Positions 24,675-37,482 of a DNA stretch of 64,000 nt are shown in pieces. This DNA comes from Hyphomicrobiales bacterium. Its GTDB lineage: Bacteria > Pseudomonadota > Alphaproteobacteria > Rhizobiales > Rhizobiaceae. The translations under genes and the position numbers were made by a program. The first letter of the stretch is position 1; every line of letters starts with the position of its first letter. Where the stretch lies: assembly GCA_900472675.1 (NCBI GenBank), contig UCJA01000015.1:124001-188000 (forward strand). Direction: 5' to 3'. The notes beneath the pieces are model-generated. The model was not told the DNA's origin. It ran no database searches and saw only the letters and a list, made by a program, of their open reading frames with translations.

Positions 24675-25543
24675 ACGTGATGATCTTTGGCTGCGGCTAT
24701 TCCGGCAGCGCCATCGCCAGAGCCTTCCTGGACCAGGGCGACCTGGTCGCGGGCACCGTCCGGTCGCCGCAAAAGGCGCTGGATCTTGCTGTTCACCAGA
24801 TCAAGGCCTTCGTGTTCGACGGCAGCCCGTTCAGCGACGATCTGCTGAAGCAATTGCGGGACGTTACCCATCTCGTCCAATCCATCCCGCCGGGACGCGA
24901 GGGCGACCCGCTGCTGCCGCTCCTCTCCGGTCGCCTGCGTACGCTTTGTCCGGCACTCGAATGGATCGGATACCTCTCCACCGTTGGCGTCTATGGGGAT
25001 CACGGCGGCGACTGGGTCACGGAGGAAACACCCGGAAGCCCGATCCAGGGCCGCTCCATCGAGCGGGTCGACACGGAACAGGCCTGGGAGGCGGAGGCGA
25101 CCGCTGCAGGCGTACCCTGCGCCGTGCTGCGGCTCTCGGGGATCTACGGGCCGGGTCGCAATGCCTTCGTCAACCTTGCCCAGGGCAAGTCGCGGCGGAT
25201 CATCAAGAAGGACCAGGTCTTCAACCGCATCCGCGTGGAGGATATCGGTGCGGCGACCCTCTTCCTCGGCCGGCTAGGGCTCGGCGGCATCTACAATGTG
25301 ACGGACGACGAACCTGCTCCGCCCCAGGACGTGATTGCCGAAGCTGCCCGCCTGATGGGGATCGCCCCTCCTCCCGAACAGGATTTCGACAGCGCCGACA
25401 TGAGCCCCATGGCACGCTCCTTCTATGGCGCGAACAAGCGGGTCTCGAATGACAAGATGAAGGCTGCGGGCTTCCAGTTTCGCTTTCCGGAGTACCGCGC
25501 GTCACTCAGCCAATTGTGGGTCGATGACATGTGGAGAGGATAA
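24671..25543 (+). CDS. SDR family NAD(P)-dependent oxidoreductase (YeeZ-like)
   Basis: 290-residue extended short-chain dehydrogenase. Rossmann motif MIFGCGYSGSAIARAF at the N-terminus, then YLSTVGVYGDHGGDWVTE, the substrate-loop GIYGPGRNAF and YNVTDDEPAPPQDVI, as in YeeZ/epimerase-like proteins. The ATG overlaps the queG stop (ATGA), so GST, queG and this gene form a tight operon from 22823 to 25543. Substrate unknown. Confidence 0.88.
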   Translation: MNVMIFGCGYSGSAIARAFLDQGDLVAGTVRSPQKALDLAVHQIKAFVFDGSPFSDDLLKQLRDVTHLVQSIPPGREGDPLLPLLSGRLRTLCPALEWIGYLSTVGVYGDHGGDWVTEETPGSPIQGRSIERVDTEQAWEAEATAAGVPCAVLRLSGIYGPGRNAFVNLAQGKSRRIIKKDQVFNRIRVEDIGAATLFLGRLGLGGIYNVTDDEPAPPQDVIAEAARLMGIAPPPEQDFDSADMSPMARSFYGANKRVSNDKMKAAGFQFRFPEYRASLSQLWVDDMWRG

Positions 25544-25922
25544 TTTTCCCATCCGCGTAAGTTGGATATTCCATTCCAACAACCTCTGTTGGTAATTCTT
25601 TCTTAATTCATACGGCAGTGAATCCCATAATTTGCGCGATTAGGGCAAGTCTGCTGCATTTTAAGAAATTTTTTTCACAGATTTTCGTGAACGACTCACG
25701 CCATCGAGGCCACCGCAAAACGATTCCTGTTTCGGACTGATTCTTAAGGATTTCTTCCCGAATCTCTTAGCCGGCTTCCCAGAAACATCGACAGCAATCT
25801 AATCACGAATATTACAGACTGTAACGTTCCGTGATCACGAGTCCCACTTTTCTGCCATTTTTGCCCCGGCTTTACGCTCTTGCACCACTTGTGCAGGGAC
25901 AAAACGAACGGGGACGACCGAC
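25544..25922 (+). promoter_or_regulatory. AT-rich 379-base regulatory region upstream of RlpA-like gene
   Basis: The longest gene-free stretch in the window, clearly more AT-rich than its surroundings. It contains a perfect 13-base palindrome TTACAGACTGTAA (25812-25824) nested inside a second repeat pair ATCACG (25802-25807) and CGTGAT (25830-25835). A further inverted pair, TTGCACC/TTGTGCA, lies close to the gene start. I see no ORF or tRNA here. Function as an operator or small RNA is inference. Confidence 0.5.
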
Positions 25923-26330
25923 TTGACACCAATTCGACGCTCGACTTTCGCCGCGGCCTCATTTGCTGCTTTTTCACTTCTGGCATCGGCTCAAGCCAAT
26001 GCTGCGGGCTGCGGCGGCGCTTCCTGGTACGCGCTCGGCTCAAAGACTGCATCCGGCGAACGGATGAACGCCGCCAAGCTGACAGCCGCTCACCGCACAC
26101 TGCCTTTCGGTACCAAGGTGATGGTCACCAACAAGCGCAACGGACGCAGCGTCATCGTTCGCATCAACGATCGGGGCCCCTTCATCCGCGGTCGCGTGCT
26201 CGACGTTTCAAAGGCTGCCGCGCAGAACATCGGCATGGTTTCCAGCGGCACGGCCAATGTCTGTTTCCAGGTGGTCGATGCCTCCGTCCAGAAGATTGCA
26301 GGCCGCGGCCTCAAAGACAGCGACGGCTGA
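25923..26330 (+). CDS. RlpA-like double-psi beta-barrel septal protein
   Basis: 135-residue exported protein. Signal peptide MTPIRRSTFAAASFAAFSLLASAQANA (cleavage near residue 27), then one RlpA double-psi beta-barrel domain: GGASWYALGSKTASGERMNAAKLTAAHRTLPFGTKVMVTNKRNGRSVIVRINDRGPFIRGRVLDVSKAAA. RlpA proteins are lytic transglycosylases or peptidoglycan-binding proteins acting at septa. The SPOR domain of full-length RlpA is absent. The initiation codon appears to be TTG (25923) preceded by GGGGA. Confidence 0.88.
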   Translation: MTPIRRSTFAAASFAAFSLLASAQANAAGCGGASWYALGSKTASGERMNAAKLTAAHRTLPFGTKVMVTNKRNGRSVIVRINDRGPFIRGRVLDVSKAAAQNIGMVSSGTANVCFQVVDASVQKIAGRGLKDSDG

Positions 26331-26409
26331 GCCTGACGCTGGGTCTTGCCCTAAAACCCGATCACGGCTACGACCCGATCATACGGGTTCAACCGAGACG
26401 GAGATTAAG

Positions 26410-27699
26410 ATGCGACTGGGCGGACGTGTAGCCGGAGCCATTGACGTACTGGCAGATATCGAGGCGCGCAAACGCCCTGTTGCCGATGCCCTGAAAGACT
26501 GGGGCCTCGCCCACCGGTTCGCCGGTTCCGGAGATCGCGCTGCCATCGGCAATATTGTCTACGACGCGTTGCGCATGCGTCTCAGCCACGCCTGGGTCAT
26601 GGACGACGACAGCCCCACCGCCTTGGCCTATGCCGTCCTTATCCGCCAATGGGGCTATTCCCCCGAGGCGCTTTCCGCCGATTTCACCGACGACCGATTT
26701 GCACCGCCTGCGCCGTCCGAGATGAACCTGCTGGCGCTTGCGTCGCGCGACATCGATGACGCGCCGCTTCATATCCAGGGCGATATCCCGGAATGGATAC
26801 TTCCATCTTTCGAAGCCAATTTCCGCGAGGACTGGCTGTTTGAAGCCAAGGCACTTGCCTCACGACCGACGCTCGACCTTCGCGCCAACACCCTCAAATC
26901 CACCCGGGACAAAGTGGTCAAGGCGCTGGACCGCGCGGGAGCGAAGGCTTCGACCCTTGCCCGCAACGGCATCCGGATTGCCGCAGGCGAAGGTGCTTCC
27001 CGCCTTCCCAACGTGACCGCCGAGCTTTCGTTCCAGAAGGGCTGGTTCGAAGTTCAGGACGAAGGATCGCAGATCGTTGCCGATCTCGTCGATCCGGGCG
27101 AACAGGACCAGGTGCTGGATTATTGCGCCGGCGGTGGTGGCAAGACGCTCGCCATGGCGGCCGCCATGCACAACAAGGGGCAGATCCATGCCTTCGATGC
27201 GGACCGCAAGCGGTTGGCACCGATCATCGAACGGCTGCGGCGTGCGGGTACCCGCAACGTCCAGGTTCATGATGATGCGCGGCAGCTGGAACAGCTGCGC
27301 AACAAGCTCGACGCCGTACTGGTCGATGCGCCCTGCACCGGCACAGGCACCTGGCGTCGCCGGCCCGACACCAAGTGGCGGCTGACGCAGAAGAACCTGG
27401 ACGAGCGGATTGCGCAGCAGCAGGCGGCGCTGGGAGAAGCATCTGCCTTCGTAAAGCCCGGCGGTTCGCTGCTTTATGTCACCTGCTCCATCCTTCCGGA
27501 AGAAAACGACCAGCAGGCGGCGCGCTTCTGCGACGAGCATCCGGACTTCTCCATCACCTCGGTGGAGGATCGCTGGAACAAGCATGTGGGCAAGGACGCG
27601 CCGCGTCCGCGCATCAGCGCTGCCGGAACGGTGACGCTGACGCCTGCCACCACGGATACGGACGGGTTCTTCTTCTGCCGCATGCAGCGCCGCGCCTGA
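26410..27699 (+). CDS. RsmB/NOP2/Sun family RNA (cytosine-5)-methyltransferase
   Basis: 429-residue SAM-dependent m5C methyltransferase. The catalytic core shows VQDEGSQIVADLV, the SAM loop VLDYCAGGGGKTLAMAA near residue 238, HAFDADRKRLAPI, VDAPCTGTGTWRRRPD (catalytic Pro-Cys near residue 311) and YVTCSILPEENDQQ (second Cys). The N-terminal part resembles a NusB-like helical region. It may be the C967 16S rRNA methyltransferase RsmB, but target identity is not certain from sequence. ATG 26410 follows GAGATTAAG. Confidence 0.88.
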   Translation: MRLGGRVAGAIDVLADIEARKRPVADALKDWGLAHRFAGSGDRAAIGNIVYDALRMRLSHAWVMDDDSPTALAYAVLIRQWGYSPEALSADFTDDRFAPPAPSEMNLLALASRDIDDAPLHIQGDIPEWILPSFEANFREDWLFEAKALASRPTLDLRANTLKSTRDKVVKALDRAGAKASTLARNGIRIAAGEGASRLPNVTAELSFQKGWFEVQDEGSQIVADLVDPGEQDQVLDYCAGGGGKTLAMAAAMHNKGQIHAFDADRKRLAPIIERLRRAGTRNVQVHDDARQLEQLRNKLDAVLVDAPCTGTGTWRRRPDTKWRLTQKNLDERIAQQQAALGEASAFVKPGGSLLYVTCSILPEENDQQAARFCDEHPDFSITSVEDRWNKHVGKDAPRPRISAAGTVTLTPATTDTDGFFFCRMQRRA

Positions 27700-27705
27700 T
27701 CCGGA

Positions 27706-27731
27706 CGGACGCTGCTGAGCAAGTGCGTCCG
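27706..27731 (+). terminator. hairpin after the RNA methyltransferase gene
   Basis: A 7-bp perfect stem CGGACGC/GCGTCCG with a 12-base loop, followed by CTTCTAATCCTTC, which is pyrimidine-rich but lacks a true T run. Weak terminator candidate, 7 bases after the stop. Confidence 0.5.
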
Positions 27732-27757
27732 CTTCTAATCCTTCTAAACTAGATCGT

Positions 27758-27786
27758 TTGACACCAGTTTAAATTTGCGCAATGAA
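27758..27786 (+). promoter_or_regulatory. candidate promoter of the imelysin operon
   Basis: A consensus -35 TTGACA at 27758-27763, then 17 bases, then AATGAA as a poor -10 element. Just upstream lie two TTCTAA direct repeats and an AT-rich patch, which might be an iron-responsive regulator site, but no perfect Irr or RirA box is seen. The assignment rests mainly on the -35 match and position 45 bases before the first gene. Confidence 0.4.
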
Positions 27787-27830
27787 CCGTTCCGACGATG
27801 GCTTCACGCCGTCGTGACAGGAGAGGGACG

Positions 27831-29108
27831 ATGATCGCTAAATCCATTTGCGGCGCCGCGCTGGCGCTCTGGGCGTCGGCAGCGATTCTGGTGGTTACGC
27901 CGGCGCAGGCCGCGACCACATCTGCCGCCGTGCTGAAACATTATGCCGACGTGGCCCATGCCAAGTTCGAAGATGCGCTGACGACGGCGCAGGCGCTGGA
28001 CAAAGCCGTCGATGCGCTCATCGCCAAGCCCAGCGACGAGACGCTGAAGGCAGCGCGCGCGGCCTGGATTGCGGCGCGCGTTCCCTACCAGCAGACGGAA
28101 GTCTACCGGTTTGGCAATCCTATCGTCGACGACTGGGAAGGCAAGGTAAACGCCTGGCCGCTGGACGAAGGCCTGATCGACTATGTCGACGCAGCCTACG
28201 GCACGGAAAGCGACGAGAACTCGCTCTACACAGCCAACATCATCGCCAACCCGAAGATCAAGATCAACGGCAAGACGCTCGACACAACCAAGATCACGCC
28301 GAAGACCCTGCGCAGCCTGCATGAGGCCGGCGAGATCGAGGCCAATGTGGCGACCGGCTACCACGCCATCGAATTCCTGCTCTGGGGCCAGGACCTGCAC
28401 GGCACCGGCCCTGGAGCCGGCGAACGCGCCTATACGGACTACGACAAGGCCAATTGCACGCATGGCAATTGCGACCGTCGTGCCCAATACCTGAAGACGG
28501 CGACCGACCTTCTGGTATCCGACCTCAAGGACATGGTGACGGCCTGGGCACCTGCGGGCAAGGCGACCAAGCATGTGGAAGCCAAGGCCAAGAGGGGGCT
28601 CACCGCCATCCTAACCGGCATGGGTTCGCTGTCCTATGGGGAGCTTGCGGGCGAGCGCATGAAGCTCGGCCTGCTGCTGCATGACCCCGAAGAGGAGCAT
28701 GATTGCTTCTCGGACAATACCTATGCATCGCATCTCAACGACGCGATCGGCATCAAGTCTGCCTATACCGGCGAATACACCCGCCTGGACGGCACGACGA
28801 TGACCGGCCCTTCGCTCTCGGACCTGGTGGCGGCCAAGGACGCCGCGCTCGACACGGAGATGAAGGGCAAGCTCGACACGACGCTTGTCGCCATGAATGC
28901 CATGGCCGAGCGCGCCAAGACTGTGGAAGCCTACGACCAGATGATCGGCGACGGCAATGCGGATGGCAATGCCGTCGTGCAGAAGGCGATCGACGGGCTG
29001 ATCGACCAGAGCAAGAGCGTCGAGCGGGTCATCACCGCGCTCGATCTCGGCACCGTCAAGCTGGAAGGGTCCGACAGCCTCGACAACCCGGACGCCGTTT
29101 TCCAATAG
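27831..29108 (+). CDS. imelysin family iron-regulated periplasmic protein (IrpA-like)
   Basis: 425-residue exported protein with a signal peptide (cleavage near residue 28 after PAQA). It is an imelysin/peptidase M75-fold protein: AARVPYQQTEVYRFGNPIVDDWEGKVNAWPLDEGLIDYVD is the first conserved block, and GYHAIEFLLWGQDLHGTGPGAGER carries the GxHxxE motif thought to bind metal. It lacks the protease activity first ascribed to imelysin as far as is known; relatives are iron-regulated outer or periplasmic proteins. It heads a four-gene cluster running to 32889, and an intercistronic hairpin follows. Confidence 0.88.
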   Translation: MIAKSICGAALALWASAAILVVTPAQAATTSAAVLKHYADVAHAKFEDALTTAQALDKAVDALIAKPSDETLKAARAAWIAARVPYQQTEVYRFGNPIVDDWEGKVNAWPLDEGLIDYVDAAYGTESDENSLYTANIIANPKIKINGKTLDTTKITPKTLRSLHEAGEIEANVATGYHAIEFLLWGQDLHGTGPGAGERAYTDYDKANCTHGNCDRRAQYLKTATDLLVSDLKDMVTAWAPAGKATKHVEAKAKRGLTAILTGMGSLSYGELAGERMKLGLLLHDPEEEHDCFSDNTYASHLNDAIGIKSAYTGEYTRLDGTTMTGPSLSDLVAAKDAALDTEMKGKLDTTLVAMNAMAERAKTVEAYDQMIGDGNADGNAVVQKAIDGLIDQSKSVERVITALDLGTVKLEGSDSLDNPDAVFQ

Positions 29109-29119
29109 CCAACCAAAGG

Positions 29120-29149
29120 CGGACCGCAGACACCAGTGCCTGCGGTCCG
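29120..29149 (+). other. perfect intercistronic hairpin before the di-heme oxidoreductase gene
   Basis: A 10-bp perfect stem CGGACCGCAG/CTGCGGTCCG with a 10-base loop ends seven bases before the ATG at 29157. It has no T run, so it is not a classic terminator. It may stabilise the upstream mRNA 3' end or hinder ribosome access to the second gene, giving different levels of the two proteins. Confidence 0.7.
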
Positions 29150-29156
29150 GTGCCCC

Positions 29157-30695
29157 ATGAGAACGTTCCGTTTTCTTCCCCTTCTGCTGCCGGTCGTTTC
29201 CGGCATGCTGGTGCTGGCGCCGATCGTGGCGAGCGGCGGCGATCCGCTGTTTGCGACCACGCGCACGGATCTCGACACCAAGGACCAGAAGCGGGTAGCG
29301 ACCGTGACCCGTCCGGCCAGCGATTTCAGCAAGCCTGAACAGTTCGAGACCATGTCGGCCGGGGCATCGACCAGCCGTGCCGATATCAACAGCAATGCCT
29401 TCTCCCATTTTTCCGCCAACATCACCTTTGCCGAGGAAGAGACGTTCAAGCTCGGCAATGCGCTGTTCACAAAGCTCTGGGTCTCATCGCCCTCGTCCAC
29501 GCAGGCGTCGGATGGGCTCGGGCCGCTGTTCAACGCGCGGGCCTGCCAGAGCTGTCACCTGAAGGATGGCCGCGGCCATCCACCTGAAGGATCGACTGAC
29601 GCAACCTCCATCTTCCTGCGGCTCGGCCGTCCGGCCCGCACCGAGGCGGAGCGGCAGCAGGTCGCCAACCACGATGCGCTGAACTATCCGGACGCGGTGT
29701 ACGGCGAGCAGTTGCAGGACCTGGCGGTACCGGGCCTCAAGTCCGAAGGCCGCATGAAGATTGCCTACGAGGACGTGCCCGTGACGCTTTCGGGCGGCGA
29801 AGTGGTGACGCTGCGCAAGCCAACCTATTCCGTATCCGACCTCGCCTATGGGCCGCTCGAAGCCGATGTGACGCTGTCGGCACGCGTTGCGCCACCGATG
29901 ATCGGCATGGGTCTCATCCAGGCGATCCACGACACGGACATCCTTGCCAAGGCCGATCCCGATGACAAGGATGGCGACGGCATTTCCGGCAAGGCAGCGC
30001 TGGTGCGCGACCACAGGACGGGCGAGCTCAAGCTTGGCCGGTTCGGCTTCAAGGCGCAGAACGCCAGCGTGCGCGACCAGGCGTCATCCGCCTTTGCCGG
30101 CGACATGGGGATTTCCACCCCCGACAACCCCTTCGACCACGGCGACTGCACGAAGGCCGAGAAGGATTGCATGGCCATGCCGACCGGCGTGCAGGCAAGG
30201 CTCGGTCCCGTCGAGGCGCCGGATCCGGTACTCAGTCTCGTCACCTTCTATTCCGAGAACCTTGCCGTTCCGGCACGCCGTAAGATCGCCGACAAGACGG
30301 TGCTCAGAGGCAAGGAGCTGTTCTACCAGTCCGGCTGCACGGCCTGCCATACGCCGAAATTCGTGACGAGCCGCGACGCCGGCAACAAGGCGCAGGCCTT
30401 CCAGCTGATCTGGCCCTATTCCGACTTCCTGCTGCACGACATGGGCGAGGGCCTTGCAGACGGGCAACCGGTGGGCATGGCGGACGGCCAGGAATGGCGT
30501 ACCCAGCCGCTATGGGGCGTCGGGCTGACGCAGACCGTCAACGGCCACACCTTCTTCCTTCACGACGGGCGAGCGCGTAATCTCACCGAAGCCATTCTCT
30601 GGCATGGTGGCGAGGCCGAGAAGGCGCGCAATGCCTTTGCCGCGATGCCGAAGGACGACCGCGCCGCCGTTCTCACATTTCTGGAGTCACTTTGA
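29157..30695 (+). CDS. di-heme oxidoreductase family protein (DUF1111, thiol oxidoreductase-like)
   Basis: 512-residue exported c-type cytochrome. After a signal peptide (residues 1-25), two heme-attachment motifs are visible: CQSCH near residue 130 and CTACH near residue 396, with WGVGLTQTVNGHTFFLHDGRARNLTEAILWHGGEAE at the C-terminus as in the DUF1111 family, which is related to MauG/bacterial cytochrome c peroxidase folds. A Ca-binding-like DPDDKDGDGISG loop is near residue 265. It sits between two imelysin genes. Electron donor and substrate are unknown; a role in iron redox change at the cell surface is inference from context. Confidence 0.88.
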   Translation: MRTFRFLPLLLPVVSGMLVLAPIVASGGDPLFATTRTDLDTKDQKRVATVTRPASDFSKPEQFETMSAGASTSRADINSNAFSHFSANITFAEEETFKLGNALFTKLWVSSPSSTQASDGLGPLFNARACQSCHLKDGRGHPPEGSTDATSIFLRLGRPARTEAERQQVANHDALNYPDAVYGEQLQDLAVPGLKSEGRMKIAYEDVPVTLSGGEVVTLRKPTYSVSDLAYGPLEADVTLSARVAPPMIGMGLIQAIHDTDILAKADPDDKDGDGISGKAALVRDHRTGELKLGRFGFKAQNASVRDQASSAFAGDMGISTPDNPFDHGDCTKAEKDCMAMPTGVQARLGPVEAPDPVLSLVTFYSENLAVPARRKIADKTVLRGKELFYQSGCTACHTPKFVTSRDAGNKAQAFQLIWPYSDFLLHDMGEGLADGQPVGMADGQEWRTQPLWGVGLTQTVNGHTFFLHDGRARNLTEAILWHGGEAEKARNAFAAMPKDDRAAVLTFLESL

Positions 30696-31798
30696 TGCGC
30701 AAGCTGCTGCTCGCCGGCCTCCTTTCGATGCTTCCGGCGATGGGGCATGCCCAGGAGGCGGACACCGCGCCCGCGGTGAAGCTTCCCGAGGCCGACGTCA
30801 CCAAGGTGATGACGGCGGCGGTCAACGGCTTCATCCGCCCGGGTTACGACGCCTTCCAGCAGTCGGCCGAGACGATGACCGGCGCCATGGCGAGGCTTTG
30901 CGCAGCACCCTCCCCCGCCAACCTTGACGCGGCGAGAGCTGCCTTCCGCGAGGTGACGACACGCTGGGCACGGATCGAGATCGTGCGCGTCGGGCCCGTC
31001 ATCGAGCAGAACCGCTTCGAGCGCATCCTCTTCTACCCCGACCGCAAGAGCACCGGCCTGAAGCAGGTGCAGGCAACGCTGACCAAGGCGGACGAAGGTG
31101 CGGCAGACCCTGTGGCGCTGGGAACCCGAAGTGTCGCCATGCAGGGGCTCGGTGCGCTTGAATACATCCTTGCCGGCAACGGCTCCGAGACATTGCTCGG
31201 GCCTCCGCAGAGCTTCCGCTGCCGCTACGGCGCCGCGATCTCGGCCAATGTGGGCAATGTCGCCCGCGAGGTGTCCGACATCTGGGACGCGCCGAATGGC
31301 ATCGCCGCAAGCTGGGAAAAGCCGGGAGCGGACAATCCCGCCTTCCGCACCGGCGGAGAGGCTATCACCGCCCTCCTCGGCATTCTCGTGCACGGCACCG
31401 AAGCCGTGCGGGACCAGCGGATCGAGACCTTCTACAAGGGTGCCGACAAGGTGACGTTTCCCAAGCAGGCGCTGTTCTGGCGCTCGCAGAACACCTGGCC
31501 CAGTATCAAGAGCAATCTGGAAGGGCTGTCGACGCTGCTTGAGACCTCCGGCATGGCGGCGCTGCTGCCGGAGAAGGACCGGGCAATCGTCACGCAGACC
31601 CAAAAGCAGCTCCAGTCGCTGATCGCGCTATCGGCCACCATCACACCCGATCTCGAAAAAGCGGTCGAGGACAAGGGCGAGCAGAAGAAGCTCGATGCCA
31701 TGCTGGCCGGCACCAAGGACGTGATCGCCGCGCTGAATGACGGCTATGGCGGCGCCATCGGGCTCAGCTCCGGCTTCTCCTTCGCGGACGGGGACTGA
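30695..31798 (+). CDS. second imelysin family protein
   Basis: 367-residue exported protein with a signal peptide ending near AMGHAQ (residue 20). The imelysin fold is indicated by ATTRWARIEIVRVGPVIEQNRFERILFYPD-like sequence and by MQGLGALEYILAGNG, a GxxAxE variant of the GxHxxE metal motif in which His is replaced (GLGALEYIL). It is much diverged from the first imelysin, 27831-29108, so the two are not a recent duplication. The ATG overlaps the stop of the cytochrome gene (TGATG), indicating coupled translation. Confidence 0.85.
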   Translation: MRKLLLAGLLSMLPAMGHAQEADTAPAVKLPEADVTKVMTAAVNGFIRPGYDAFQQSAETMTGAMARLCAAPSPANLDAARAAFREVTTRWARIEIVRVGPVIEQNRFERILFYPDRKSTGLKQVQATLTKADEGAADPVALGTRSVAMQGLGALEYILAGNGSETLLGPPQSFRCRYGAAISANVGNVAREVSDIWDAPNGIAASWEKPGADNPAFRTGGEAITALLGILVHGTEAVRDQRIETFYKGADKVTFPKQALFWRSQNTWPSIKSNLEGLSTLLETSGMAALLPEKDRAIVTQTQKQLQSLIALSATITPDLEKAVEDKGEQKKLDAMLAGTKDVIAALNDGYGGAIGLSSGFSFADGD

Positions 31799-31806
31799 GG
31801 CCAACT

Positions 31807-32889
31807 ATGTGGCGCGGAGACACGATCGACCGGCGCGGGTTCCTCAAGGCGGCCGGAATAGGCTTTGCCGCTGCCCTGTCACCCGGCTCGCTGATGGCGC
31901 TGGAGCGGGCCGATGCGGTCTATGCCTCGGGCTTTCGCGCAGCTGACGGATCCTTCGGCGTCGCCACGGTGACGGAGCGCGGGGAGATCGTCGACCGGAT
32001 CGCCCTGCCGGCCCGTTCCCACGGCATGGCCTGGAGCAAGGCCACCGGCCGGGGCGTCGCCTTTGCCCGCCGCCCCGGCACGTTCGCCCTGGTTTTCGAT
32101 CCGTCCCGCCAGGCTGAACCGGTGATGATCACCGCGCCGGAAGGGCGCCACTTCTACGGTCATGGGCATTTCTCCCCCGATGGCACGCTGCTCTATGCCA
32201 GCGAGAACGATTTCGAGGCCAATCGCGGCATGATCGGCATCTATGATGCGCGCGACCGGTTCCGGCGGGTGGGGGAGTTCGACGCGCATGGCATTGGCAC
32301 CCACGATATGACCGTGTCGGACGATGGTAGCCTGCTGGTGATCGCCAATGGCGGAATCGAGACGCATCCAGATTTCGGCCGCACCAAGCTCAACCTCGAT
32401 CGCATGGAGCCGTCGCTGGTGCTGCTCGACGCGCGCACGGGCGCGCTTGTGCAGCGGCATGGCCTGCCATCCTCGCTCAGCCAGCTTTCGACCCGGCACC
32501 TGGACATCGCCGAGGACGGGCGGATCTGGTTTGCCTGCCAGTGGGAAGGTCCGCGCAATGCCCTGCCGCCGCTGGCCGGCTGGTTCTCCAATGGCGAGGA
32601 TATCATGCTGCTCGACCTGCCCGAGGACACCGTGGTGCGGCTTGGCAATTACGTCGGCGCGATCGCCGTTAACCGACGGGACAGTATCGTCGGGCTCACC
32701 TCCCCCATCACCGGAGCAGCCGTAACGCTCGATGCCCGAAGCGGCCTCGTCGTCCGCGAAGAGACGGTTCGCCAGGCCGCGGGCGTCGCACCGGCCGCCC
32801 ATGGCATGGCCGTGTCTTCCTACGACGGCCGCTTCAACGAGGTCCGCAGCCCTGTCGCCTGGGACCAGCACATCGTGCGCATCAGCTGA
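31807..32889 (+). CDS. Tat-exported DUF1513 protein
   Basis: 360-residue protein starting with a twin-arginine signal (DRRGFLKAAGIGFAAALS), so it is likely exported folded. The remainder resembles a seven-bladed beta-propeller of the DUF1513 family: GHGHFSPDGTLLYASENDFEANRGMIGIYD and GIGTHDMTVSDDGSLLVIANGGIETHPDFGRTKLNLDRMEPSL are typical. It lies eight bases after the second imelysin gene and closes the four-gene cluster. Biochemical function is unknown. Confidence 0.88.
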   Translation: MWRGDTIDRRGFLKAAGIGFAAALSPGSLMALERADAVYASGFRAADGSFGVATVTERGEIVDRIALPARSHGMAWSKATGRGVAFARRPGTFALVFDPSRQAEPVMITAPEGRHFYGHGHFSPDGTLLYASENDFEANRGMIGIYDARDRFRRVGEFDAHGIGTHDMTVSDDGSLLVIANGGIETHPDFGRTKLNLDRMEPSLVLLDARTGALVQRHGLPSSLSQLSTRHLDIAEDGRIWFACQWEGPRNALPPLAGWFSNGEDIMLLDLPEDTVVRLGNYVGAIAVNRRDSIVGLTSPITGAAVTLDARSGLVVREETVRQAAGVAPAAHGMAVSSYDGRFNEVRSPVAWDQHIVRIS

Positions 32890-32928
32890 TCTCGCGAAGA
32901 CGCGCGGTCCATGCTATCGAATATCCCC

Positions 32929-33381
32929 ATGAACAAGATCCTGGTTTACATCCTCTTCGTTGTCGCCGTCGTTGCCATCGGCTCCCTGATCGGCGTCCTC
33001 AATATCCCGGGCGAATGGTACCAGTCGCTGGTCAAGCCTCCCTTCAACCCGCCGAATTGGATTTTTGGCCCGGTCTGGACGGCGCTCTACGTGCTGATCG
33101 GTATTGCCGGGGCGCGAACCTGGATCGCTGGCGCCAGATCGACCCGGATGACGCTCTGGTTCGTGCAGATGGTTCTGAACTTCCTGTGGTCGCCGGCCTT
33201 TTTCGGGTTCGAACGGCCGGCACTCGGCCTTGTGGTGATCGTGCCGCTGCTGATCGCCATCCTCGCCTTCATCCGTGCCAGCTGGCCGGTGGATCGGGTC
33301 TCTGCCTGGCTGTTCGTGCCCTATGCGCTCTGGGTCGGGTTTGCGACACTGCTCAATGCCTCGATCCTGATCCTCAACTAG
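32929..33381 (+). CDS. tspO: TspO/MBR family tryptophan-rich sensory protein
   Basis: 150-residue membrane protein with five transmembrane helices. Family motifs: WYQSLVKPPFNPPNWIFGPVWTALYVLIGIAGARTW and VLNFLWSPAFFGFERPALGLVVI. Bacterial TspO binds porphyrins and affects tetrapyrrole and stress responses. Start ATG 32929 (MNKILVYILF) or 32911 in the same frame. The four-gene iron-related operon immediately upstream makes a link to heme handling tempting, but there is no direct evidence. Confidence 0.92.
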   Translation: MNKILVYILFVVAVVAIGSLIGVLNIPGEWYQSLVKPPFNPPNWIFGPVWTALYVLIGIAGARTWIAGARSTRMTLWFVQMVLNFLWSPAFFGFERPALGLVVIVPLLIAILAFIRASWPVDRVSAWLFVPYALWVGFATLLNASILILN

Positions 33382-33447
33382 CGACCTTCCCAGGTTGCGA
33401 CCGGCGGCACGGCATGCCACTTTCCAGGCACTTGACGAGGAAACGGC

Positions 33448-33897
33448 ATGGACATGACGGACACCGGTGATTTTCGCGAACGCATCCGCCGGAGCTTTGC
33501 GAACCAGGGCGCCATGGCAATGATCGGGGCGGAACTCTCCCAGATCGGGCCCTCGATGATCGAGATCGAGATGCCCTTCGACCCGCGGCTGACGCAGCAG
33601 CACGGCTTCCTGCATGCCGGCGTGATTTCCGCCGCGCTCGAGACCACCTGCACCTATGCCGCCTATACGACCATCGCGCCCGAGGAATCCGTGCTGACCA
33701 TCGAGTTCAAGGTGAACCTGATGTCGCCCGGCCGCGGTGAGCGCTTCCTGTTTCGCGGCGAGATCACCAAGCCCGGCTCCACCATCATCGTTGCCGACGG
33801 TCGCGGCTATGCGCTGAGCGACGGGCCGGCCAAGCTGATCGCCTCGATGACCAGCACGATGATGATCATTCGCGGCAGACAGGACGTTGTGGAATGA
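33448..33897 (+). CDS. PaaI-like hotdog-fold thioesterase
   Basis: 149-residue protein with a 4HBT/PaaI hotdog domain: the active-site helix LTQQHGFLHAGVISAALETTCTYAAYT (His-Gly and downstream Glu) and the strand EESVLTIEFKVNLMSPGRGERFLFRGEITKPG. Such enzymes hydrolyse acyl-CoA thioesters, often phenylacetyl-CoA-type or short-chain substrates. Substrate unknown. It overlaps mtnN by four bases (ATGA). Confidence 0.9.
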   Translation: MDMTDTGDFRERIRRSFANQGAMAMIGAELSQIGPSMIEIEMPFDPRLTQQHGFLHAGVISAALETTCTYAAYTTIAPEESVLTIEFKVNLMSPGRGERFLFRGEITKPGSTIIVADGRGYALSDGPAKLIASMTSTMMIIRGRQDVVE

Positions 33898-34532
33898 ACT
33901 TCGAGCTGAAGCACCTCGGCGGCAAGGCCGTGCTCTTCGTGATGGCGGTCGATGCGGAATATGGTCCGGCGTTGCGCGCGCTCATTCACCCGCTGATGAC
34001 CGGCGTCGGCCCGGTGGAGGCAGCCGTGGTGCTCAGCCATACGCTGACGAAGCTGCAGCTGGAAGGACAGCGGCCCGATCTCGTGGTGTCGCTCGGTTCG
34101 GCAGGCTCGCGTGTGCTGGAACAGACCGAGATCTACCAGGTGGCATCGGTCGCCTACAGAGACATGGACGCCTCGCCGCTCGGCTTCGAGAAGGGCCGCA
34201 CGCCGTTCCTCGACCACCCGGCGGTGATCGACCTGCCGCACCGGATTCCGGGACTCCGCCAAGCCTCGCTGTCGACCGGTGGCAATATCGTGTCCGGCGC
34301 AAGTTACGGTCTGATCGAGGCAGAGATGGTCGACATGGAGACCTTTGCGGTGTTGCGTTGCTGCCAGCTGTTCGGTGTGTCGCTTGTGGGCCTGCGCGGC
34401 ATCTCCGACGGACAGGAAGAGCTGAAGCACGTCGACAACTGGACTGAATACCTGCAGGTGATCGACGGGAAGCTGGCAAAGGCCGTCGGACTTCTGGAAA
34501 AGGCCCTGGTGAGCGGCGATTTGACCCTCTGA
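33894..34532 (+). CDS. mtnN: 5'-methylthioadenosine/S-adenosylhomocysteine nucleosidase
   Basis: 212-residue nucleoside phosphorylase-fold enzyme that cleaves adenine from methylthioadenosine and SAH. Visible features: LFVMAVDAEYGPAL at the start (catalytic Glu region modified), VVSLGSAGSRVLEQTEIYQV, the MVDMETFAVLR segment (substrate Glu) and GLRGISDG with the catalytic Asp. It is about 20 residues shorter than E. coli MtnN, lacking part of the first sheet, a form common in rhizobia. Next gene downstream is guaA, separated by 40 bases. Confidence 0.85.
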   Translation: MNFELKHLGGKAVLFVMAVDAEYGPALRALIHPLMTGVGPVEAAVVLSHTLTKLQLEGQRPDLVVSLGSAGSRVLEQTEIYQVASVAYRDMDASPLGFEKGRTPFLDHPAVIDLPHRIPGLRQASLSTGGNIVSGASYGLIEAEMVDMETFAVLRCCQLFGVSLVGLRGISDGQEELKHVDNWTEYLQVIDGKLAKAVGLLEKALVSGDLTL

Positions 34533-34572
34533 CGCTGTTGCACGAAGGCCAAGTTTTCTTTAAAGGCTCGCC

Positions 34573-36150
34573 ATGACCCAGATCGCTCATCCCGACAGCA
34601 TTCTCATCATCGATTTCGGCAGCCAGGTAACGCAGCTGATTGCGCGCCGTGTGCGCGAAGCCGGCGTCTACTGCGAAATCCATCCATTCCAGAACGCAGC
34701 CGCGGCTTTCGATACGCTGAAGCCGAAGGGCGTGATTTTTTCCGGCGGTCCGGCTTCAGTGACCGCGGAGGGCAGCCCACGCGCGCCGCAGCAGGTGATC
34801 GACAGCGGCGTTCCCATCCTCGGCATATGCTACGGCCAGCAGACGCTCTGCACGCAGCTTGGCGGCGTGGTGGAAGGTGGCCATGCGGCAGAATTCGGCC
34901 GTGCCGACCTGGAAGTGAAGAAGGCAAGCGCGCTGTTCGACGGGCTTTGGGAGGTTGGCGGACGCTATCCCGTCTGGATGAGCCACGGCGACCGCGTAAC
35001 CGAGCTGCCCGATGGCTTCGAGGTGATCGCCACCTCGGAAAACGCACCGTTTGCGATCGCTGCCGACGAGAGCCGCCACTATTACACGACCATGTTCCAC
35101 CCGGAAGTGGTGCACACACCGGATGGCGCCAAGCTGCTCTCCAACTTTGTGCACAAGATCGTCGGGCTGAAGTCCGACTGGACCATGGCTGCCTACCGCG
35201 CCGAAATGATCCGCAAGATCAAGGACGAAGTGGGCAGCGAGCGGGTGATCTGCGGGCTTTCCGGCGGCGTCGATTCCTCCGTCGCGGCGGTTCTGATCCA
35301 CGAAGCAATCGGCGACCAGCTGACCTGCATCTATGTGGACCACGGCCTGATGCGCGAGGGCGAGACCGAGCAGGTGGTCGGCATGTTCCGCGACGCCTAC
35401 AACATCCCGCTGGTGCATGTGGATGCGTCCGACCTGTTCCTGACCGAGCTTGCCGGCGTTTCCGACCCGGAGGTGAAGCGCAAGACGATCGGCCGCCTGT
35501 TCATCGACGTCTTCGATGCGGAGGCGAACAAGATTGGTGAAGACGGCAAGGGTTTCCCGAAATTCCTTGCCCAGGGGACACTCTACCCCGACGTGATCGA
35601 AAGCGTGTCCTTTTCGGGCGGCCCTTCGGTCACCATCAAGAGCCACCACAATGTGGGCGGCCTGCCCGAGCGCATGAACATGAAGCTCGTCGAGCCGCTG
35701 CGCGAGCTGTTCAAGGACGAAGTGCGGGCGCTTGGCCGCGAACTCGGCCTGCCGGAAAGCTTCATCGGCCGCCACCCCTTCCCGGGTCCGGGCCTTGCGA
35801 TCCGCTGCCCCGGCGTAGTAACGCGCGAAAAGCTCGACATTCTGCGCAAGGCCGATGCCGTCTATCTGGACGAGATCCGCAAGGCCGGCCTCTACGACAC
35901 GATCTGGCAGGCGTTCGCGGTGCTTCTGCCGGTTCAGACAGTGGGCGTCATGGGCGACTACCGCACCTATGACTTCGTCTGCGCGCTGCGTGCCGTGACC
36001 TCGGTCGACGGCATGACGGCAGACTTCTTCCCCTACGACATGAACTTCCTCGGCCGCGCGGCCACCCGCATCATCAACGAAGTGCGCGGCATCAACCGCG
36101 TCGTCTACGATGTGACGTCCAAGCCGCCTGGCACGATCGAGTGGGAATGA
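34573..36150 (+). CDS. guaA: GMP synthase (glutamine-hydrolysing)
   Basis: 525-residue two-domain enzyme converting XMP to GMP. The N-terminal class I glutamine amidotransferase has [20 protein letters not shown] and the nucleophile Cys in [10 protein letters not shown] near residue 91. The ATP-pyrophosphatase domain has the PP-loop [12 protein letters not shown] near residue 230, then [12 protein letters not shown]. The GMP-synthase C-terminal domain ends with [24 protein letters not shown]. Length and order are standard. Confidence 0.98.
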
Positions 36151-36164
36151 GCCAAGCTTGAAGG

Positions 36165-36193
36165 CAAAGGTGAGATGGCTTATCTTACCTTTG
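36165..36193. other. inverted repeat between guaA and vapB
   Basis: A 12-bp near-perfect stem CAAAGGTGAGAT/ATCTTACCTTTG (one G-T wobble) with a 5-base loop, placed 15 bases after guaA and 22 bases before vapB. It may terminate guaA transcription, but it is also well positioned as the palindromic operator of the VapBC promoter; sequence alone does not decide. Confidence 0.55.
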
Positions 36194-36214
36194 TCCTACC
36201 CCTGAGGCTCTCCC

Positions 36215-36499
36215 ATGGCTGATGCTCTGAAGACGCACGTTTCCACCGAGGGACAGGTCATGCTTCCCAAGGCCGTGCGTGATCGCCGCGACTGGACGAC
36301 CGGAACAGAACTGGTCGTCGAGGAGACCCCGGAAGGCGTGCTTCTGAAGAAGGCTCCGGCCTTCGCCCCAACTGCGCAAGGTGCCGCCTTCGGCATGCTC
36401 AAGTACACGGGCAAGCCGAAGACTATTGAAGAAATGGATGCCGCACTTCTGGAAGCCGTGGCCGAAGACTTCAAGCGAAGTGTCGATCCCGATCGATGA
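36215..36499 (+). CDS. vapB: AbrB-type antitoxin (VapB)
   Basis: 94-residue antitoxin with an N-terminal SpoVT/AbrB DNA-binding swapped-hairpin: KTHVSTEGQVMLPKAVRDRRDWTTGTELVVEETPEGVLLKK. The C-terminal part (about residues 60-94) should bind and inhibit the toxin. It overlaps the following PIN toxin by four bases (ATGA), as is normal for VapBC. The pair lies between guaA and a YqaA gene. Autoregulation through the palindrome upstream is expected. Confidence 0.9.
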   Translation: MADALKTHVSTEGQVMLPKAVRDRRDWTTGTELVVEETPEGVLLKKAPAFAPTAQGAAFGMLKYTGKPKTIEEMDAALLEAVAEDFKRSVDPDR

Positions 36500-36885
36500 T
36501 CGCGATCGACACCAACATCATCATCCGTTACCTCGTCGAGGACCATCTCGAACAAACCACCCGTTCTCGCCAAATCATCGACGAGCAGGACGTTTTCGTT
36601 TCTGTCACTGTCGTACAGGAAGTGGAATGGGTGCTTCGGAGCATATACCGGTTTCGGAGGCCGAAGGTCATCAATGCATTTTTGACATTTGCGGGCATGC
36701 CGTCGGTGACAATAGAAGATAGTGATCTGGTCGCTCAGGCGCTTGACCTCTTTTCACACGGCATGGATTTTGCCGACGCGCTGCATCTTCTGAAAGCGCG
36801 GCATTGCGAAAAATTCGTCACTTTTGATCGTCAGATGATAAAGGCAGCTCAAGCTGCCGGTCACCAATTTGTACAGGACGCGTAA
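36496..36885 (+). CDS. vapC: PIN-domain toxin (VapC)
   Basis: 129-residue PIN ribonuclease. Acidic active-site residues are visible: MIAIDTNIIIRYLVEDH (Asp5), VTVVQEVEWVLRS (Glu near residue 40) and MDFADALHLLKARHCEKFVTFDRQMIKAA (two Asp). VapC toxins cleave initiator tRNA or 23S rRNA in characterised cases; the target here is unknown. No truncation, so the module appears intact. Confidence 0.92.
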   Translation: MIAIDTNIIIRYLVEDHLEQTTRSRQIIDEQDVFVSVTVVQEVEWVLRSIYRFRRPKVINAFLTFAGMPSVTIEDSDLVAQALDLFSHGMDFADALHLLKARHCEKFVTFDRQMIKAAQAAGHQFVQDA

Positions 36886-36888
36886 TCC

Positions 36889-37482
36889 ATGCTTCGCAGA
36901 CTCTATGACTGGACCATGGCGCTCAGCGCCCGCAAATCCGCTGAAGTCTGGCTGGCGGTGATCGCCTTCGTGGAAAGCTCGGTCTTCCTGGTGCCGGCCG
37001 ACGTGCTGTTCCTGCCCATGTCACTGGCAAGGCCGGAACGCGCCTGGCGCTACGCGCTGATCGCGACGGTGTTTTCGGTTCTGGGTGGGATTGCCGGATG
37101 GTGGATAGGCTATTTCGCCTTCGATGCGATCGCGGCGCCGATCCTGGAATTCTACGGCAAGCTCGATACGTTCAACGAGCTGAAGGCCGGCATTACCTTC
37201 GAGACCATCGTGCTGATGCTGGTGACCTCAGGCTTTGCACATCTACCGCCGATCAAGGTGGTGACGATCCTGTCCGGCGCCGTGCATGTGGACATCTGGC
37301 TGTTCATCGTCTCGGCGGTGATCACCCGCGGCGGGCGCTTCTTCCTGCTCGCCTGGCTGCTGCGCCGCTACGGTGAAGGTATCCGGCACTTCATTGAAAA
37401 GCGCCTCGGCCAGATCGCCATGGCGGGTGCGGCCGTGCTGATCGTGCTCTACATCGCCTACAAGCTGTTGCTGCCGCACTGA
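36889..37482 (+). CDS. YqaA/DedA-like membrane protein
   Basis: 197-residue integral membrane protein with about five hydrophobic segments, matching the YqaA group of the DedA/SNARE-associated family: [53 protein letters not shown] has the ExxxxxPxP-like region. The DedA superfamily includes lipid flippases for undecaprenyl phosphate and aminophospholipids; the YqaA role is unproven. It begins three bases after vapC. Confidence 0.87.

Follow-up and report, generated by a model that had tools for sequence, protein, structure and literature searches.

What might two unlike imelysins, a DHOR di-heme protein and a DUF1513 protein do together in one operon? The question is raised by a 64,000-nucleotide stretch of a Hyphomicrobiales bacterium genome (Rhizobiaceae; assembly GCA_900472675.1, contig UCJA01000015.1, positions 124,001 to 188,000), referred to here as the window, in which four genes lie on the + strand at 27831-32889 in the order imelysin 1, DHOR, imelysin 2 and DUF1513. 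The locus is probably the Rhizobiaceae version of a conserved iron-starvation imelysin operon, of the type of PA4370-4373 in Pseudomonas aeruginosa and VC1264-1267 in Vibrio cholerae, and would act as a metal-handling module of the cell envelope. Both the operon type and its association with iron have been published before. The four genes are:

27831-29108, + strand: imelysin 1, ICMP type with a GxHxxE motif, predicted exported (PF09375, E 2.6e-88)
29157-30695, + strand: DHOR / DUF1111 di-heme protein with two CxxCH motifs, predicted exported (PF06537, E 3.6e-100)
30695-31798, + strand: imelysin 2, IPPA type with a GxxxxE motif, predicted exported (PF09375, E 9.5e-48)
31807-32889, + strand: DUF1513 protein with a Tat-type N-terminus, predicted beta-propeller (PF07433, E 3.6e-110)

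Gene content and conservation of the operon

An earlier note, made from the sequence alone, had described a tight four-gene set in which a cytochrome with two CxxCH motifs lies between two imelysins, and its positions, families and motifs were all confirmed. The best start for DHOR is the ATG at 29157 and its stop is at 30695, where the best imelysin 2 start (ATG 30695) overlaps that stop by one base (TGATG). Signal peptides of the four proteins were judged by eye, and export is a prediction. In the genome itself PF09375 was matched twice and PF06537 and PF07433 once each, all inside the operon. A search of NCBIfam gave no name for imelysin 2 or DUF1513; its best model for imelysin 1 was LruB, at 110 bits far below the cut-off of 850.

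A co-occurrence search of the gene set, which the earlier note had proposed as a check, was run and proved strongly positive. Of 120 genomes drawn evenly from the phylum, 24 have DUF1513, 29 have DHOR and 28 have an imelysin. Coordinates were checked by hand in the 24 genomes bearing DUF1513 (own genome included), and all 24 carry imelysin, DHOR, imelysin and DUF1513 within a few kilobases; since the order is the same in each, the four-gene set is not a product of chance. Among the 96 genomes without DUF1513, a DHOR match was found in five (G129 and G072, with weak or partial matches in G063, G118 and G161) and an imelysin match in four.

Closer to the window, DUF1513 is present in 47 of 60 relatives, including 36/36 of the own genus when the own genome is counted. 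Stretches around the DUF1513 match were taken from the 46 other relatives (35 of the own genus, 11 of other families of the order), and genes were detected in them by tblastn with the window proteins at a cut-off of 1e-5. All four genes were found in the same order in every own-genus stretch (35/35), and all four were found in 7 of the 11 from other families. Of the 80 named loci, 79 also keep the gene order, and L148 ends at a contig end. The named loci closest in DUF1513 (75-88% identity among the first 27 listed) are labelled Neorhizobium, Rhizobium or 'Rhizobiales bacterium', which fits a place of the genome in the Rhizobiaceae. Two sequences are irregular: in G016 (L079) splits in several genes, including DHOR and DUF1513, look like sequencing error, and the DUF1513 frame of G109 contains one internal TAG.

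With an ICMP-type imelysin, an IPPA-type imelysin, DHOR between them and DUF1513 last in a conserved order, the window's set has the make-up of the PA4370-4373 type. The last gene of the P. aeruginosa and V. cholerae operons we take to be DUF1513. In the available parts of the literature, those operons likewise pair a GxHxxE with a GxxxxE imelysin, with a DUF1111/di-heme gene between them (PA4371, VC1265) and one gene after; PA4370-4373 is called Fur-regulated there, as is VC1266 with VC1264, and the imelysin operon type itself was already described (Xu et al., 2011, PMC3143127; PMC7600106). VC1264, VC1265 and VC1266-7 also appear, in the table available, among iron-uptake genes. In Rhodobacter sphaeroides, the accessible text reports an iron- and IscR-linked operon, hemP-irpA-bfd-bfr-RSP_1545-1543, in which irpA precedes a 'thiol oxidoreductase with 2 cytochrome c heme-binding sites' and two further genes; unlike it, the window operon lacks hemP, bfd and bfr (PMC4618611). 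Judged by their order, RSP_1544 and RSP_1543 would be imelysin 2 and DUF1513. By analogy with these species, the operon in the window may be regulated by iron.

The inserted genes seen in some relatives point in a similar direction. In a sister-genus locus (L083, 4332-5091, + strand) a BFD-like gene (PF04324, E 0.0053, below cut-off) and a bacterioferritin gene (TIGR00754, E 3.7e-54) stand between genes 1 and 2, and BFD and bacterioferritin are likewise reported in the R. sphaeroides operon, in the part of the paper available (PMC4618611). L084 has a BFD-like gene at the same place (E 0.0098). In two further genomes (one from the same order, the other from the same class) a multicopper oxidase gene (PF07731, PF07732) on the - strand separates imelysin 1 from DHOR (L086, 5788-7254; L087, 5920-7587). 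Moreover, G066 carries a tandem pair of DHOR genes in one operon (L088, 4732-7938, + strand). Such insertions and duplications would fit a module that handles the redox state of a metal. The relation to iron suggested in the earlier note is thus supported by the published orthologous operons and by the bacterioferritin or multicopper oxidase genes inside some relatives' operons.

A further likeness is to EfeUOB(M), an iron-linked system that likewise combines a heme protein with an M75 domain (EfeO/EfeM). Membership in that system was rejected, as the own genome has no match to the FTR1/EfeU permease (0 for PF03239) or to the DyP peroxidase EfeB (0 for PF04261); the DHOR of the window differs in being of a c-type di-heme family. 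The naming of EfeB itself varies between the available texts, with Xu et al. (PMC3143127) classing it as DUF1111 and PMC3577903 calling it a DyP. FeoB was also considered as a partner and set aside: the nine PF02421 matches reach at most 51.5 bits, and their frames were taken to be probable other GTPases.

The two imelysins and the modelled DHOR and DUF1513 proteins

The four proteins were compared with relatives in alignments A1-A4, which hold the window protein plus 39, 38, 42 and 36 rows, picked from 59, 57, 53 and 41 diverse proteins that were themselves drawn from 142, 141, 101 and 141. Imelysin 1 matches the ICMP structure 7xrx (E 9.1e-116). Its motif, GYHAIE, has G176, H178 and E181 invariant in 37/37 aligned first imelysins, as are the acidic residues E103, E113, D117, E271, E275, E287 and E289. 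Imelysin 2 matches IPPA (3pf0) in a profile search (E 1.3e-44) and carries GxxALE in place of this motif, with the Gly, Ala and Glu each kept in 42/43 aligned proteins. At the position of the motif His it has Gly in 19, Thr in 10, Pro in 7 and other residues in 7, and never His (43/43). The relatives bear out both motifs, GxHxxE and GxxAxE, as given in the earlier note. The two imelysins are distant from each other (17% identity, profile probability 98.2). Plausibly their metal chemistry may differ, as that note proposed.

The Pfam name of the family, and the title of 7xrx, 'insulin-cleaving metalloproteinase', would suggest that the imelysins are M75 metallopeptidases. This is given almost no credence here, since imelysin 2 lacks the motif His throughout and, in the available part of their paper, Xu et al. 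argue from structure against a peptidase role (Xu et al., 2011, PMC3143127).

Both CxxCH motifs of DHOR (130-134 and 394-398) are invariant in 39/39 aligned proteins, as are H427, M429, H469, H483 and Y182, and the Cys pair C331 and C338 is kept in all 39. The model of the protein has a mean pLDDT (predicted local distance difference test) of 88.4. In the VIA structure search, the gamma chain of hydrazine synthase came first (5c2v_C, Z 16.0, 221 residues, 3.3 A, 19% identity), followed by several cytochrome c peroxidases at Z 15.0-15.4; rows 1-27, which comprise cytochrome c peroxidases, MauG and hydrazine synthase gamma, span Z 13.9-16.0 over 221-257 residues at 3.2-4.2 A. Foldseek on its own was weak: it gave two matches, with E values no higher than 0.001 and TM scores, relative to the query, of 0.22 and 0.27; 5c2v chain C was again first. 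As modelled, DHOR belongs to the di-heme cytochrome c peroxidase / MauG superfamily, with two c-type heme sites in that fold. In MauG proper, a Tyr is the distal ligand of the C-terminal heme.

These matches bear on the idea that the operon is a maturation module, in which a MauG- or MbnH-like DHOR does not act on iron directly but makes a metal or redox site by oxidising a residue in its partner, either an imelysin or DUF1513. MauG entries align with the model at Z 13.9-15.1, one of them within 1 of the top, and the MauG-like copper-homeostasis protein 6e1c at Z 14.8; DHOR also co-occurs almost strictly with the presumed substrates. However, the cytochrome c peroxidases named above score as high (other peroxidases reach 11.5-12.6), hydrazine synthase gamma slightly higher, and no modified residue is known. 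A maturation role is therefore considered unlikely.

The N-terminus of DUF1513 carries DRRGFLK, a motif of the twin-arginine translocation (Tat) type, with its two Arg kept in 39/40 and 38/40 aligned proteins; the Pfam TAT model scored 12.7 bits on DUF1513, below its cut-off of 22.7. The AlphaFold2 model is a beta-propeller (mean pLDDT 92.4), by inference with seven blades. H72, H119, H166, H231 and Y282 appear to occupy one position on five consecutive blades, and each is invariant (40/40), as is H355. The placement of this His ring was derived from strand order and sequence position in the model. His at that blade position is also present in other propeller families, which weakens the reading of the ring as a metal site.

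The structure matches of DUF1513 again include hydrazine synthase. Chain B of 5c2v (labelled beta by inference) was first in Foldseek (E 3.0e-12), with quinohemoprotein amine dehydrogenase (1jju_B) fourth, and shared the top tie in VIA at Z 29.4 (280 residues, 2.4 A, 15% identity) with 1l0q (30.1) and a designed seven-bladed propeller (29.9). This match is suggestive at most, because generic propellers fill the structure lists, 964/964 aligned chains having Z 8 or more in VIA. The sequence profile search returned one unrelated effector and, from propeller chains, short stretches only. The likeness to hydrazine synthase is one of fold, in chains B and C alone, with no evidence of its chemistry here.

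The best matches of the DHOR model and of the DUF1513 model thus both include a chain of the same enzyme, and although the propeller and cytochrome c peroxidase folds are common, this offers the most interesting hint of a pairing. In both hydrazine synthase and quinohemoprotein amine dehydrogenase, a propeller subunit is paired with a di-heme subunit. It is tentatively proposed that DUF1513 may be a propeller holding a metal or cofactor through the four His and the Tyr, docked to DHOR as a dedicated redox pair, with the imelysins presenting or receiving the metal; on the models this is possible, if doubtful. DUF1513 was not named in the literature searched, a search which did not cover the DHOR-DUF1513 pair itself.

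Promoter block and intercistronic hairpin

Two further elements lie in the DNA around the first gene:

27742-27770, + strand: promoter block TTCTAAACTAGATCGTTTGACACCAGTTT, a pattern conserved in the upstream regions of the family
29120-29149, + strand: GC-rich hairpin between genes 1 and 2, assigned from folding z and covariation

In the promoter block, a -35-like TTGACA at 27758-27763 is preceded by a half that resembles an operator. The upstream alignment was inspected first and a relaxed pattern was then made from it; this pattern was found in 35/36 own-genus, 77/79 named and 2/5 sister-genus upstream regions. With the analysts' own grouping as family, 93 of the 98 distinct upstream regions contain it, versus 1 of 19,600 shuffled ones; the misses in this family set are L068, L141 and L157 and the sister-genus loci L083-L085, within their groups. 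It is in none of 22 upstream regions from other families. The own genome holds one copy when up to 3 mismatches are allowed, and a regulon search there returned the operon's own site only; because of this single copy, the block in that form is not a wide regulon box. In this respect the operon differs from PA4370-4373 and VC1264-1267: Fur is reported there, in the parts of the papers available, whereas here a family-specific block is present.

The hairpin ends about 7 bases 5' of the DHOR ATG. No clear Shine-Dalgarno sequence was seen by eye before that ATG. The window's hairpin folds with z -2.73 against shuffles. Of 125 intercistronic regions (60 mononucleotide shuffles each), 114 had z below -2; the 125 include the window and count some genomes twice under different ids. 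Alignment A5 comprises 63 sequences, namely the window and 62 of 76 distinct intercistronic regions, and in it all eight consensus pairs show compensatory changes. Moreover, 93.2% of cells pair; the corresponding values are 75.5% for column shuffles and 49.0% or less when the structure is slid, although the structure was derived from A5 itself, which favours it in the slid control; none of 500 shuffles reached the observed values. About 7 of the 63 rows (L109, L116, L117, L124, L126, L127 and L128) have no consensus hairpin in place by eye. One hairpin listing was stem-selected; the folding z and covariation tests were unselected. No Rfam family reached its gathering score within 25000-37000. 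Because the coding strand has no U-run, a role in termination is less likely, and the hairpin would more likely act on mRNA stability or on translation of gene 2. It may control the ratio between genes 1 and 2.

Proposed metal handling and its alternatives

In the proposed mechanism, the His/Glu/Asp site of imelysin 1 would most likely bind a divalent metal, with iron as the first candidate. DHOR, perhaps in a complex with the DUF1513 propeller, would set the redox state of the metal or protect it by electron transfer or peroxide-driven oxidation. Imelysin 2 lacks the motif His and would act as a partner or carrier rather than duplicate the site of imelysin 1. Import through the inner membrane would fall to a transporter encoded elsewhere. 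The working idea of the earlier note, periplasmic iron capture with a redox change by the cytochrome, may be correct.

Several observations weigh against an iron-starvation module of this kind. G129 has imelysin 1 and DHOR with a broken second imelysin and no DUF1513, and in the stretches L047, L070, L074 (cut by a contig end) and L077 one or two of the four genes were missing by tblastn. For the promoter block, no match to a known iron-regulator site could be assigned in a by-eye comparison with the Irr (ICE) and RirA (IRO) motifs, from which no claim is drawn. In the available part of the R. sphaeroides study, the DHOR gene RSP_1545 falls below the authors' cut-off in the iscR mutant (PMC4618611). 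In the accessible text of Xu et al., neither PIBO nor IPPA is found to bind heme or ferric ion specifically (Xu et al., 2011, PMC3143127). Finally, the related M75 protein EfeM has a preference for copper, iron and zinc, and iron specificity is therefore not assured.

This preference leads to the suggestion that copper or another divalent metal is mainly served, the iron link being indirect. A Cu2+ site in an Algp7 structure, the multicopper oxidase genes inside the operon in G150 and G067 and the DUF1513 His ring, which would suit copper, are all consistent with it. However, P. aeruginosa, V. cholerae and R. sphaeroides are all reported, as far as the available texts go, to regulate the operon by iron, and the L083 insertion includes a bacterioferritin; a mainly copper-serving operon thus seems improbable.

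Immediately outside the operon lies a gene which bears on another alternative:

32911-33381, + strand: TspO/MBR neighbour, outside the module (PF03073, E 7.8e-45)

TspO directly follows the four genes, as the earlier note had said, starting 21 bases past the DUF1513 stop (32911). Within 600 bases downstream it is present in 31/35 own-genus loci, with no match by tblastn in the other four, and in 43/80 named loci; TspO is thus a local neighbour without a stable partnership, rather than a member of the module. The remaining surroundings are an RsmB-type methyltransferase and an RlpA-like protein (PF03330) upstream and, after TspO, a hot-dog thioesterase and then GuaA (read from the translations) downstream. 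Together with TspO, the operon could be imagined to handle heme or another tetrapyrrole, and the R. sphaeroides operon is indeed led by hemP in the part of the paper available (PMC4618611). Nevertheless, TspO is adjacent in just over half of the named loci and PIBO and IPPA, as noted above, showed no specific heme binding, which makes heme handling very unlikely.

Envelope metal handling with iron as the probable first substrate therefore remains the preferred reading. The operon type recurs across the phylum, in 24 of the 120 genomes drawn, and is iron-linked where it has been reported. The fold and residue evidence for a possible DHOR-DUF1513 pair deserves to be followed up, and if the proposed pairing is true it would give a testable redox pair. 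The residue, fold and promoter evidence yields specific questions: which metal, if any, the DUF1513 His ring holds, whether DUF1513 binds DHOR, and what the substrate of DHOR would be.

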